From Rhodanobacter sp. C03 (GTDB taxonomy: Bacteria > Pseudomonadota > Gammaproteobacteria > Xanthomonadales > Rhodanobacteraceae), in contig NZ_MUNT01000001.1 of NCBI RefSeq assembly GCF_002001175.1, positions 992,001 to 1,056,000 on the forward strand: a DNA stretch of 64,000 nt, given 5' to 3'. The notes under the pieces are model-generated. The model was not told where the DNA came from. It did not search any database and saw nothing but the letters and a program-made list of their open reading frames with translations. Positions 55,330 to 60,509 of this stretch are shown here, in pieces. The position numbers and the translations under genes are program-made. Within the stretch, counting starts at the first letter, position 1; each line of letters begins with the position of its first letter.

Positions 55330-55356
55330 GTTTTGGCCTCACACCCCATGCTCGTC

Positions 55357-55376
55357 ATTCCGGCGAAGGCCGGAAT
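55357..55376 (+). repeat. REP-like hairpin after tldD
   Basis: ATTCCGGC (55357-55364) and GCCGGAAT (55369-55376) with a GAAG loop, preceded by CGTC. This CGTCATTCC-type palindrome is common in intergenic regions of many proteobacteria. Confidence 0.6.
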
Positions 55377-55396
55377 CGCATCTGCTCTCTCGTTTT

Positions 55397-55671
55397 AGAG
55401 CGAAGAGCTTTCACCCTCCTTCGGAGGGCGAGTTACTTCTCTTTTGCTTGTCCAAAAGAGAAGTAACCAAGAGAAAACGACACCCCGCTTGGCGCTTGCC
55501 GGGCATCCATGCCCGGCAAGTCCGTGAGCCGGTGTCGGGCTTTTCGATCGGACTCCCGTCCGAGCGAAAAGGAGTCGACATCCTTGTCGCCTCCCGCTGC
55601 GCGGCCTGTCGTCCCCGACTCACCGCCGCACAGGGGCCCCGGGTAGAGCAGCGGGCCATCCTGTCCCGCAC
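55397..55671 (+). repeat. Structured inverted repeat, left copy (A)
   Basis: About 275 nt that match the reverse complement of 57328-57600 at high identity. It contains a string of hairpins: CCCTCC/GGAGGG; ACTTCTCTTTT/AAAAGAGAAGT (around 55434-55464); TTGCCGGGC/GCCCGGCAA (55496-55519); TCGGAC/GTCCGA inside CTTTTCG/CGAAAAG (55540-55571); and GGAGTCGAC/GTCGcCTCC (55571-55594). Copy B changes several stems with compensation. The surrounding spacer 55330-55869 holds no credible gene; a further hairpin CGCAACCGC/GCGGTTGCG lies near 55678-55699. Confidence 0.85.
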
Positions 55672-55869
55672 TCGGTGCGCAACCGCTGCGCGGTTGCGAG
55701 AGCTGAAGGGCCGAAATGCCAAGTCCTCGAATTAGGTTGCGAGTTCCTGTTGCTGCAAATGTCTGCTATCGGCTAGGACGAGGTGGTCGTAGTCTCTTTC
55801 AATCCTCACGACAGCGGCTATTTGAGGTGCGCTTTGGCCGTTTTTTTGGGATCAACATCGCGCATCTGC

Positions 55870-56994
55870 TCATTGACTAACCCAAGGATTAGGGCTGACA
55901 TCCTTCCCTCGCATGAAGAGTGGCGTACCACCACTGAATGAGAAGTTGGAGCGATAAGCAACATCCAAGTTCCAGCGCGCAACTATCTTGGCCTGTTCTT
56001 TCGGCAACTTGAACTGGGATTCGTAATACCTTGCTAGCGCTAATTCTGCCGCCGGATAAGCGCGCTTGATTCGTGCGTACAGGCGAGCAGAAGAAGGTCC
56101 AGTTTGCGACCACTGCAACAATCCCTCGTCAGCCTGATCCTTTGAGTTGTATGTGTCTTTGTCCGACAAAGCCCAAGGACGATACACAACATTTCTCCAG
56201 ATATGCTGCGAATACATACGAAGGCTCGCTGTGGGCTGCAGCGTACCTTCCTCAGGGCCATAGCCCAGCGTCTGGTCCAAAAGTTTAGCAAGCTGTCTGA
56301 CTTCTTCCGGAAGAATGCGTGGCGCCCTAGCTTGACCCTGTTCCGGCCAGAATTTGATTTGGCATGCTGACTTGAAGCCATCGTCATCAGCCAAATAGAC
56401 CTCCCACTGTCCGATCGGCTCGTATGGTTCATCGACGATAATGAACCATGACTTTTCGGTGGTGTTGGACAAAAAAACCAGCGGTGTTCGCCACCCGCGA
56501 TCCAACAAGGGCTTGTAACGATGACGCGGATTGGTATCTGCCAGATCAGCGTGGAATTGCTCCGGCGTAACGTCGCTCTGAAGGACGTAGAGCGAGTACA
56601 TGTCTCCACGCCAACCAGCGCTATCCGCGGTGATGACGATCCGTCCAGCGGTGGTGACATCTCTGCCCCAGTGAATGTGCCGATATGACGGGTCCTTCAG
56701 ATCCGGAAACGGGTTTCCGAAGTGATCGGTGCTTTCAGGGATCGCATCGCCGCCAGAGATGTCTACGTCCGCTGCGCCAAGGACTATGGTGCTGCCCAGA
56801 TGGTCAGGCAGTTGCAGAGGTGCGTAGACATAAGCTGAAGTGGATGCGTACATATGTTTGGCGATAGCCATCGCATCCATACATTCCGGAGCCGACACCC
56901 TGCCGAAAATATGGGGAGATGGCTGGGCGGCCACTGTCCCGCAGCAAACCAGTGACAAAACCGCCCACAACAAACCCGCAATGCGTCGTTTCAT
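55870..56994 (-). CDS. Unrecognised exported protein within an AT-richer island
   Basis: 374-residue protein with a signal peptide (MKRRIAGLLWAVLSLVCCGT, cleavage near VAAQ). I do not recognise a family. It is rich in Tyr, Trp and Asp; notable are a C-terminal region resembling a short Sel1-like helical repeat (AYPAAELALARYYESQFKLP) and a WRTPLVFLSNTTEKSWFII strand pair. Start ATG 56994 has AGGGG 9 nt upstream; an in-frame ATG at 57033 lacks the signal-peptide shape. Codon use and base content are visibly less GC-rich than all neighbours, and the gene lies inside an inverted repeat pair, both signs of recent transfer. Confidence 0.75.
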   Translation of the reverse strand: MKRRIAGLLWAVLSLVCCGTVAAQPSPHIFGRVSAPECMDAMAIAKHMYASTSAYVYAPLQLPDHLGSTIVLGAADVDISGGDAIPESTDHFGNPFPDLKDPSYRHIHWGRDVTTAGRIVITADSAGWRGDMYSLYVLQSDVTPEQFHADLADTNPRHRYKPLLDRGWRTPLVFLSNTTEKSWFIIVDEPYEPIGQWEVYLADDDGFKSACQIKFWPEQGQARAPRILPEEVRQLAKLLDQTLGYGPEEGTLQPTASLRMYSQHIWRNVVYRPWALSDKDTYNSKDQADEGLLQWSQTGPSSARLYARIKRAYPAAELALARYYESQFKLPKEQAKIVARWNLDVAYRSNFSFSGGTPLFMRGKDVSPNPWVSQ

Positions 56995-57033
56995 CTCAAT
57001 CCCCTGTTTACACCAGTATGCAATAGCATCCAT

Positions 57034-57327
57034 GCCGTTCTAATGGCGTAAGTGGGGAGAAAATCTGATAGCCAAAATAGAACCGCTAATATGGCGCTCG
57101 ATTTTCCATACACCTTTCTGCATTCAGGAACATTGTGTGGACTAGTCAGTCAAGTAGGCAAGCCATGGTTTACTTCGGGTCGAAAATAGACATTTAAGAC
57201 CATATTGCGATTGGAGCGATAGTTGGTTTCGCTCGCTAGAAGAATTATCAACCTTCGGCTGAGCGGCTTGTCCGATTAAAATTCTTCAGCCGCTGCTCTG
57301 CGGATTCTTGATCGGGCTCTTCTGAAT
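57034..57327. other. AT-rich spacer without a recognisable gene
   Basis: About 294 nt upstream of the orphan gene with clearly lower GC than the window. No ORF, tRNA or promoter stands out. A loose AGCGGCT/AGCCGCT inverted pair lies near 57263-57295. It is probably part of the acquired segment. Confidence 0.4.
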
Positions 57328-57600
57328 AGTGCGGGCCACGATGGCCCGCTGCTCTATCGGGGCCCCTGTGCGGCGGTGAGGTGGGGACGACAGGCCCGCA
57401 GGGGAGTCGACAGGGATGTCGACTCCTTTTCGTCAGGACAGGAGTCCTGTCGAAAAGCCCGGCCCCGACTCACGGACTTGCCGCCCATGGATGGGCGGCA
57501 AGCGCCAAGCGGGGTGTCGTTTTCTCTTGGTTACTTCTCGTTTGGACAAGCAAAAGAGAAGTGACTCGCCCTCCGAAGGAGGACGAAAGCTCTTCGCTCT
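57328..57600 (-). repeat. Structured inverted repeat, right copy (B)
   Basis: Reverse complement of copy A at 55397-55671. Hairpins on the minus strand are conserved with compensatory changes: TTGCCGCCC/GGGCGGCAA (57478-57501), CAGGAC/GTCCTG inside CTTTTCG/CGAAAAG (57426-57457), GGAGTCGAC/GTCGACTCC (perfect here), and GCGGGCCA/TGGCCCGC at the inner end (57331-57349). The AGAGCGAAG ends of A and B face outward. Confidence 0.85.
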
Positions 57601-57611
57601 GACTGCCACAG

Positions 57612-57636
57612 CATCGCGACTGAAGTCGCTCCTACA
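57612..57636 (-). repeat. REP palindrome of the GTAG (SMAG-like) type
   Basis: On the minus strand TGTAGGAGC is followed by GCGAC, TTCA and GTCGC. The GTAG core next to an imperfect palindrome matches REP sequences of Stenotrophomonas and Pseudomonas that are moved by RAYT transposases. The rest of 57637-57752 shows nothing. Confidence 0.6.
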
Positions 57637-58655: not shown

Positions 58656-60509
58656 TCATGGCATGCGTTCGCTGGTGGAGACGGGTGCTGCCGAGGCCGT
58701 CGTTGCCGCGCTTGTCGGCTTTTTTCCAGGCGCCGGCAATCCGACTTTCCGGCAGAACGCGGCGAAGCGCGGATCGGCGTACAGCCCGCGCAACAGCGGG
58801 TCATACGTCAAACCCACCAGCTCGCTATCGTGCTGCTTGATGGCCCGCTCCAACCATGCGAAGGCCACGTCGTGGTCGCCTGACCAGGCATAGACGGTCG
58901 CGATCAGATAGGCACTGTCCATCGCGTGGGTGGCGATCAACCGATCCAGCGCGGACTTCGATTGTGCGGCATGACCGAGATCGTGTTCGGCCATGGCCAG
59001 TCCCGCCGGCCTGTCCAGTCGGGCAAACATCTGCCGTGCAGCGGCAGGGTCGCCTTGCAGCAGCGACAGGATTCCGAGGTAGGACGATGCGAGCCTGAAT
59101 TCGGGATCGATGGCCAGCACGCGTTTCATCGTCTGGCGCGCACCCTCGTAATCGGCCTGGGCGGTCCTGATTCGCCCCAGCCAGTACCAGCAGGGCGGGA
59201 ACAGTGGATCATGATTCGTGCATTTTTCGAGAGCGTCGCTTGCCTCCGGCAGGCGGTCCAGCGCCGCCAGCAGATAGCCGTAACGCAGCTGGTTTCTGCC
59301 ATCCCCGGGATCGAGGCTGACCGCCTTGAGCAGATCCACTTCGGCGCCCTGCCAGTTCCAATCATCGTTGCCGCGCAGATAACCGCGCGCGCCATAGGCG
59401 TCTCCAAGCTCGGGGTCGAGTGCCACCGCCCGCTCGGCGGCGGCCATTGCGCGTCGCCTGCCCAGTACGGCGAGGGTGGGATCCGGATTTTCTTCGGCCG
59501 CAAAACTTTCCGCCATCGCCAGGCCGGAATAGGCCTCGGCATAGTCCGGGTCCAGTGCGACGGCTTGACGGAACGCCTCGACGGCCGTCGTCGCGGTACC
59601 CGAAGCGGTGTTATGCGTCAGCAGCTGCCGCCCCAGCAGGAAATGATCGTAGGTTTCAAAGCTGGGCACATGATGCCTGCTGTTCGCTCCGGCATGGCTG
59701 GACATCAACGTCACCTTGAGCGAATCGGCAACGGCCTGGGCGATGCCGGCCTGCACCGCGAAAATGTCTTTCAGCTCGCGGTCGTAAGTCTGCGACCACA
59801 GTTCCCGGCCGTCTGCGGCATTGATCAGTTCGGCGACGATGCGCACGCGTTCACCCTGCCTGCGCACGGTGCCTTCCAGCAGCGTATCGACGCCCAGCTT
59901 CTCGCCGATCATCTTGCTGTCGGCGCCTCCGCCCTTGAAGCGGAACGACGAGCTGCGGCCGATCACTTTCAGGCCGTCGATCTGCGCCAGGCTGGCGATC
60001 AGTTCCTCGGACAGGCCATCGGAGAAGTAATCCTCATGCGGGTCGCCGCTTTCATTGAGCAGTGGCAGCACGGCGATCGACTTGAGCAGAGACGGCGCAA
60101 GCGTGCCTGGTGTGGCCGGGGTCGCCGAGGTGGCGGCGATGGTGTTCGCGTCCCGGTGCAGCACGAACTGGTTGGTCAGCAGCAGCACCACTGCCAGCGC
60201 CAGCATCGCGATGATCCAGCGATCGAGCTTCTTGCCGGTGTGCTGGGTAATCGAGTCGGCCGGATCGATCTCGCTTTCGCGTTTGAGGCCGGTCGGAGTG
60301 AACTCGTAGAACCACGCAAATGCCAGGAAGAACGGGAAGCCGATCGTGGCCGCCACCACGATCCAGCGCACCACCCAGTCGGGCACGCCGAATACCGGAA
60401 ACAGCTGGGCCAATCCCTGCGCCAGCGCCCACACGGCGCCGATATACAGCGCGCCGGCGCGCAGCACGTTGCGGCGCTTGAGTTCGGCGAGGAAGGACGG
60501 CTTGCTCAT
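58656..60509 (-). CDS. Membrane TPR protein, second of a tandem pair
   Basis: 617 residues. An N-terminal module (SFLAELKRRNVLRAGALYIG, with three hydrophobic segments at about 17-38, 45-68 and 96-113) is followed by a KSIAVLPLLNESGDPHEDYF domain related to the region next to adenylate-cyclase or CadC-like regulators, then TPR helices (about 290-560). The domain order matches a large paralogous family in Xanthomonadales with no proven function; signalling or protein scaffolding is a guess. Its ATG overlaps the stop of the upstream paralogue (ATGA at 60506-60509), so the two are co-translated. A low-complexity Ala/Ser/Thr tail ends the protein. Confidence 0.88.
   Translation of the reverse strand: MSKPSFLAELKRRNVLRAGALYIGAVWALAQGLAQLFPVFGVPDWVVRWIVVAATIGFPFFLAFAWFYEFTPTGLKRESEIDPADSITQHTGKKLDRWIIAMLALAVVLLLTNQFVLHRDANTIAATSATPATPGTLAPSLLKSIAVLPLLNESGDPHEDYFSDGLSEELIASLAQIDGLKVIGRSSSFRFKGGGADSKMIGEKLGVDTLLEGTVRRQGERVRIVAELINAADGRELWSQTYDRELKDIFAVQAGIAQAVADSLKVTLMSSHAGANSRHHVPSFETYDHFLLGRQLLTHNTASGTATTAVEAFRQAVALDPDYAEAYSGLAMAESFAAEENPDPTLAVLGRRRAMAAAERAVALDPELGDAYGARGYLRGNDDWNWQGAEVDLLKAVSLDPGDGRNQLRYGYLLAALDRLPEASDALEKCTNHDPLFPPCWYWLGRIRTAQADYEGARQTMKRVLAIDPEFRLASSYLGILSLLQGDPAAARQMFARLDRPAGLAMAEHDLGHAAQSKSALDRLIATHAMDSAYLIATVYAWSGDHDVAFAWLERAIKQHDSELVGLTYDPLLRGLYADPRFAAFCRKVGLPAPGKKPTSAATTASAAPVSTSERMP

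Follow-up and report, generated by a model that had tools for sequence, protein, structure and literature searches.

What kind of element sets a single gene between two long, inverted, hairpin-rich repeats? The question arises at a locus of Rhodanobacter sp. C03, in a 64,000-nt stretch of DNA (hereafter the window) in which a left copy (55397–55671, plus strand) and a right copy (57329–57600, minus strand) are 90% identical in inverted orientation. The first-pass annotation had described long inverted copies around one AT-richer gene, with no transposase, and that description held: G+C was 0.52 between the copies versus 0.62 in the whole window, no transposase ORF lay between the window's two copies, and the sole gene in the gap (55870–57033, minus strand; likely start 56994) encodes a 387-aa putative exported protein, with a signal-peptide-like start by eye and no family match in Pfam, NCBIfam or PADLOC at the limits used.

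By repeat comparison, alignment and folding, both copies are multi-hairpin arms of one type, T1. Beyond the earlier description, we found two palindromic cores of ~30 bp inside the arms and one REP palindrome outside each arm. On the left, a CGTC-type REP (55353–55377, plus) is followed inward by the arm, an H-type inner end (55672–55702, plus; CGGT and a hairpin at 55678–55698) and an alpha core at the cargo border (55758–55787, plus; 27.8 bits). On the right, the opposite cargo border is a beta core (57165–57194, minus; 20.9 bits, not in training), followed outward by an F-type inner end (57314–57328, minus; TATTCAGAAGAGCC), the arm, and a GTAG-type REP (57613–57635, minus). The window's REP pair, assigned from sequence and the REP orientation rule, is mixed, CGTC at one side and GTAG at the other, with the tag outermost in both. 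When the window was left out of training, its beta and alpha cores were the two best matches of the 64 kb (21.2 and 20.8 bits; next, 10.7 bits).

The arm was present in all 25 Rhodanobacter genomes searched (at least 3 to at least 27 matches per genome), and weak matches occurred in 3 of 16 genomes outside the genus; about 150 matches were listed, with up to 18 candidates scored per genome. The central pattern of the arm was found at a minimum of 111 loci, the best 80 of which lay mostly in Rhodanobacter, with one in Dyella and some in MAGs under other names. Neither deposited phages nor deposited plasmids contained an arm match. Among the matches listed, 16 of 19 neighbors less than 10 kb apart were arranged inward ('+-'; p = 1e-7 against one quarter). 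Forty copies were first seen alone: 18 stood close to a partner of another type (T2), forming cargo-free units of ~0.5–0.9 kb; one belonged to a gene-enclosing T1/T1 pair; one had only a weak neighbor on the same strand; and 20 stayed single, one of those being a mistyped region. Gene-enclosing pairs consisted of two T1 arms with different inner ends, either H (CGGT plus hairpin) or F (TTCAGAAGAGCC and variants). One H and one F end were present in 12 of 14 such pairs (11 fitting, 1 with a degenerate F), as typed by a loose pattern set by eye, 6 of the 12 fitting pairs lying at one site and not being independent; the rule failed in L047 and L050.

Some arms had no detected partner. Three single T1 arms from three genomes (L078, L085 and L104) share 0.7–1.5 kb on their inner sides at about 90–92% identity and, because this inner sequence is homologous, may be relatives of one another, cassettes of which a single arm was detected. 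Another single arm (L105, 4474–8711) adjoins ORFs of 980 and 432 aa, the second of which resembles a BREX-type ATP-binding protein by eye.

We then considered the fold of the arms, for which the first-pass annotation had suggested a function on the basis of covariation. Folded as single-stranded DNA, the left copy with its shoulder (55397–55730) reached -96 kcal/mol (z = -8.9 versus 100 shuffles). In 56 T1 copies, 98.5% of cells in an 81-pair predicted structure were paired, compared with 44–50% in slid controls, and 406 cells carried double changes, compared with a shuffle mean of 123, in a structure derived from the same alignment as that tested and thus biased in its favor. The two-sided changes that the annotation had noticed between the two window copies recurred in this larger alignment, in 34 of the 81 pairs. 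One of five covariation measures, further pair types, stayed at the shuffled level (66 versus 63.4; 95 of 500 shuffles as high). Outside two fixed G·T pairs, mismatch cells comprised 31 G·T and 30 A·C; this equality suggests DNA rather than RNA, because RNA would be expected to favor G·U on its own strand. The two pairs set aside, nearly always G·T in arm copies, point in the opposite direction, towards RNA. The arms had no Rfam match at the gathering score (best for the element, 23.3 bits versus a 39-bit cut-off), and this, together with the equal G·T and A·C counts, disfavors an RNA reading. Equal mismatch counts fit symmetric DNA hairpins or templated palindrome correction, the latter of which could itself generate covariation, so that the fold is conserved but a function of the folded form is only a possibility. 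In T1 and T2 arms, several hairpins have a CATCC-like loop in common and stems that alternate among a few sequences; some arms bear an additional hairpin module within a loop.

Of 95 arms, 36 had a REP of the GTAG or CGTC type no more than 110 nt away: 13 of the 19 cargo arms, 12 of the 55 short-pair arms and 11 of the 21 single arms. Among random control windows, the count was 40 of 4000. In all 36 cases the tag was outermost, and the reverse orientation was found in none; 6 of the 19 cargo arms had no REP within 110 nt. Both REP kinds have been described (PMC3733652). As far as the accessible parts of two reports go (PMC2817692, PMC3733652), REP dimers, REPINs and BIMEs likewise have inverted GTAG or CGTC palindromes at their outer ends, retain complementary changes and enclose a spacer, but their spacers are short, mostly 20–100 bp, whereas the Rhodanobacter elements have ~275-nt arms and about 1–6 kb of gene cargo. 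Inverted REPs ended many of our elements, though not all, and in place of a short cargo-free spacer we found cassettes of 1.1–5.4 kb. Since that spacer is a defining feature, we do not claim membership among REP dimers. The frame is nevertheless likely to be related to them, and the REPs outside the arms suggest that it arose as a REP-dimer-like element. RAYT was found in 13 of 18 genomes, and the RAYT gene of this genome lies amid 13 copies of GTAGGAGC. PF01797 had no match in G009, G014, G016 or G022, although these genomes carry 7 to 21 arm matches, and an arm match lay near 1 of 30 RAYT loci; both observations weaken RAYT as a sole mover.

The inner shoulders of the arms end in a palindrome, whose arm-side half is common and whose cargo-side half is variable at site 2, a second locus, flanked by a conserved gene and by one identified by eye as ketoacyl-synthase-like. 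Two kinds of core were distinguished by their centers, TCGGCC in alpha and TCGACC in beta. With a matrix built from 18 sites and a threshold of 18 bits, 46 matches, training sites included, were obtained in 1.34 Mb, and none in the reversed sequence. Inward-facing neighbor cores were one alpha and one beta in 11 of 11 pairs, and alpha stood on the H side wherever both cores were read, in 7 elements, of which 4 lie at site 2. Among 14 two-armed elements found via their arms, 7 had both cores, 3 had one and 4 had none at 18 bits. The gene is bracketed by the repeats, as the first-pass annotation had it, but in roughly half of the elements separate cores inside the repeats delimit the cargo. Two elements found via their cores (L380 and L383) also have arms, and four core pairs (L375, L376, L378 and L379) have no detected arm; one core each in L376 and L379 scored below 18 bits (15.7 and 15.9, respectively). 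L379, which retains a shoulder of the H kind, contains another Pycsar pair, ~57% identical at the protein level to the pair of G044. In a single case, exchange could be followed base by base within a core: the sequences of G006 and G044, two different species, match at 97.6% identity outward through a DUF6988 gene, starting 7 nt inside the beta core, and are unrelated inward.

The exact alpha core was not found in viral contigs. Among 72,556 plasmid records, the alpha consensus had 1482 matches at E up to 10 and the beta consensus 233; 1256 of the alpha matches were only 80–90% identical, and they may therefore include chance ones. On a Pantoea plasmid (NZ_CP034149.1, 90530–103726; L384, L388 and L389), related palindromes with the centers GTGCCA and ATGAGCG lie, at several places, on both sides of an individual gene or small operon and sometimes stand back to back, ~40 nt apart. 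With 3 mismatches allowed, three 50-kb stretches contained 27, 14 and 26 such palindromes, compared with 21, 14 and 10 in shuffled and 15, 15 and 20 in reversed sequence. These counts are not much above the controls, and REP doublets ~40 nt apart could mimic the pattern; we treat the Pantoea pairs as a lead only.

Site 2 allowed filled and empty states to be compared. Of 45 genomes, 38 were assessable at this site (7 were not), 28 being empty and 10 filled; the flanking genes were 207–476 nt apart in 28 genomes and 1.6–8.1 kb apart in 8, and G002 and G044, whose arms lie at contig ends, were counted as filled. Two arms were present in 6 filled genomes; the other 4 had a single arm or a fragment. 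Ten empty sites were read: a terminator-like hairpin was seen in five and, in the corresponding position, a short pair of inverted REPs in five. The cargo comprised a nitrilase-like gene, an AAA ATPase and DUF6988 in G006, PDC-S19 in G019, PDC-S06 in G002, and a full Pycsar pair with DUF6988 in G044; that of G041, G059, G013, G060 and G048 had no PADLOC match (G042 was left out of the scan). Defense families near full length were found in 2 of 7 further site-2 elements scanned. The cargos were mostly unrelated by blastn, the common parts being shoulders of ~70–95 nt and, between G006 and G044, also the last 785 nt. The arms were up to 97% identical to one another and to arms elsewhere. In a tree built from tldD, all ten filled genomes fell inside a group of 17 that also included 6 empty ones, with 4 changes needed; filled site 2 may have a single origin.

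These data bear on the suggestion of a non-autonomous mobile element. Other inverted pairs do enclose cargo genes, and relatives do have empty sites, at site 2 rather than at the window locus. Yet the arms persist there while the cargo differs, and the long repeats therefore behave more like a frame than like the moving ends of a transposon. No target duplication was established.

The window element shares its place, between tldD and pmbA (site 1), with two others, one carrying TIR in G014 and one carrying DUF5131 in G016. Some arm match (E 0.001) was present in 17 of 40 fetched tldD stretches, several of them very short. Neither a clean empty site nor a target duplication, for which the first-pass annotation had proposed a comparison from tldD to ykvA, was found at the window's own locus: ykvA lay within only 3 of the 40 stretches, and G054, the nearest sister genome, is different throughout the interval, which made the interval unsuitable as an empty-site test. 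At the tldD locus of G014 (L141, 1733–1846), the final 38 codons of tldD occur once more (92% protein identity), ~1.2 kb past the intact gene and directly ahead of the arm, as if DNA had entered the 3' end of the gene. Separately, the element is adjoined (window 58656–60509 and L137 6690–7673) by a TPR protein gene and by another gene with 47% identity to a portion of the TPR gene; G049 has three such genes at the same locus.

To ask what the elements carry, we examined the first ten T1/T1 pairs, in which the right arm of L051 is cut by a contig end and the left arm of L080 is partial. Known or candidate anti-phage families near full length were present in six: Lamassu in L050 and L051, TIR and PDC-S35 in L053, PDC-S19 in L056, PDC-S52 adjoining an AAA ATPase in L049, and DUF5131 and PDC-M30B in L080, where a neighbor matches PDC-M30A only partly. 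The window element, L047, L052 and L048 had no defense match; the cargo of L048 is ordinary metabolism, with one of its three proteins, a short-chain dehydrogenase, left out of the PADLOC scan. Of 10 proteins encoded around the window element and three other elements, 3 matched weakly and in part, and none matched near full length. Cargo genes were rare among 45 genomes of the genus (L052, 1; L056, 2; L053, 4, counting distant TIR proteins), and cassette G+C was below that of the flanks in 13 of 13.

The window gene itself was present in 2 of the 45 genomes. Its protein matched no PADLOC family (E 0.01), viral contigs contained no relative, a PDB sequence search gave a single match (E 0.68), and the predicted structure, with a mean pLDDT of 33, was set aside. 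A homologue (35% identity) occurs on Variovorax plasmids, in an uninformative neighborhood. A role in defense is only suggested, by the company of the other cassettes. G046 has a copy of the gene without arms, 90% identical from 55786 to 57067; homology begins 2 nt from the window alpha core's inner edge and ends ~100 nt before beta, and the copy has no core (best score, 0.1 bits).

We think it somewhat probable that the locus is a cassette slot in which cargo is exchanged at alpha and beta. From the outside in, the locus consists of a REP, a ~275-nt multi-hairpin arm with an H or F end, a core (alpha at H, beta at F) and the cargo, which would be swapped by recombination near the alpha and beta centers. 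In favor of this reading, which fits the data best, stand the inward orientation of neighbors, the unlike inner ends, the filled and empty states and differing cargo of site 2, the frequency of defense families, the mixed core pairs, the rank of the window's own cores, the junction inside beta, and the low G+C and rarity of the cargo. Because these centers differ and face each other, a cassette would enter in one direction. A candidate recombinase would act in trans, and the arms may assist by single-strand folding or by offering homology. Several observations count against a slot of this kind: no recombinase was identified, both cores are present in no more than half of the two-armed elements, 4 of 10 filled site-2 genomes retain a single arm or a fragment, the G046 copy, which has no arms, also has no core and loses homology before beta, exchange inside a core was followed base by base only once, and 4 of the first 10 elements, among them the window's and L048 with its metabolic cargo, have no defense match. 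The serious rival, which we rate as unlikely, is homologous recombination via similar arms or flanking core genes, the cores being hairpin repeats incidentally at the borders. The up to 97% identity of site-2 arms and the conservation of the flanking genes would suit it, as would the elements that lack cores; however, the shoulders inside the arms stay common and the change at site 2 falls at the core, G006 and G044 switch inside the beta core next to a 97.6% identical gene, and all 11 inward core pairs are mixed.

A decidedly improbable alternative is that the whole unit, from REP through arm, cargo and arm to REP, moves as a cargo-loaded REP dimer, with a RAYT (Y1) transposase acting in trans on the REPs or the folded arms. 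The invariant tag orientation of REPs outside 36 arms, the short inverted REP pairs at five of ten empty sites and the position of the genome's own RAYT gene among GTAGGAGC copies all speak for it, but four arm-bearing genomes have no PF01797 match, 1 of 30 RAYT loci is near an arm match, 6 of 19 cargo arms lack a nearby REP, and the arms remain at site 2 under changing cargo. It is less probable still that structured repeats and REPs pile up in permissive intergenic hotspots at which defense genes arrive independently by unrelated means: such accumulation disagrees with the inward bias, with the pairing of H with F ends and of alpha with beta, and with cargo borders that fall within cores, even though 20 of 40 lone copies stay single, 18 of 40 are in short cargo-free pairs, and REPs are common in loci of the genus.

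The cassette-slot reading invites comparison with known systems. Integron gene cassettes are single genes or small operons with short palindromic sites, some of them anti-phage, and their attC sites stand in the same orientation in arrays. The Rhodanobacter elements resemble them in single-gene or small-operon cassettes, short palindromic borders and much defense cargo, but have two unlike inverted sites, one cassette per slot and no array; in 11 of 11 inward pairs the cores were inverted and of two kinds. No integron integrase was noticed among the ORFs read, and the attC consensus was not seen by eye. Mobile insertion cassettes and MITE-like elements, as generally understood, likewise hold passenger genes between inverted repeats without a transposase; here, however, long multi-hairpin arms stay as cargo changes, and a parent transposon was not found. 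Recombinase-mediated cassette exchange with heterospecific sites also uses two unlike facing sites for directional exchange, but it is an engineered tool and the Rhodanobacter slot is natural. In the literature, covered by titles and abstracts with subscription papers mostly outside, neither the arm family nor the cores were described for Rhodanobacter.

As a wider and more tentative proposal, which we put forward as possible, defense and orphan genes would circulate with alpha and beta ends and be swapped in REP-bounded folded frames by an undescribed trans-acting recombinase, in a natural two-site cassette exchange. Defense genes turn over fast, and their precise replacement at fixed chromosomal places is often poorly explained; here, the borders are known to a few bases, and a culturable genus offers species with the slot filled and species with it empty for comparison. 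The cores provide a search key for more defense and orphan cassettes and for the enzyme. If the proposal is true, the related palindrome pairs of Pantoea plasmids would broaden the class into a gene-cassette system outside integrons.
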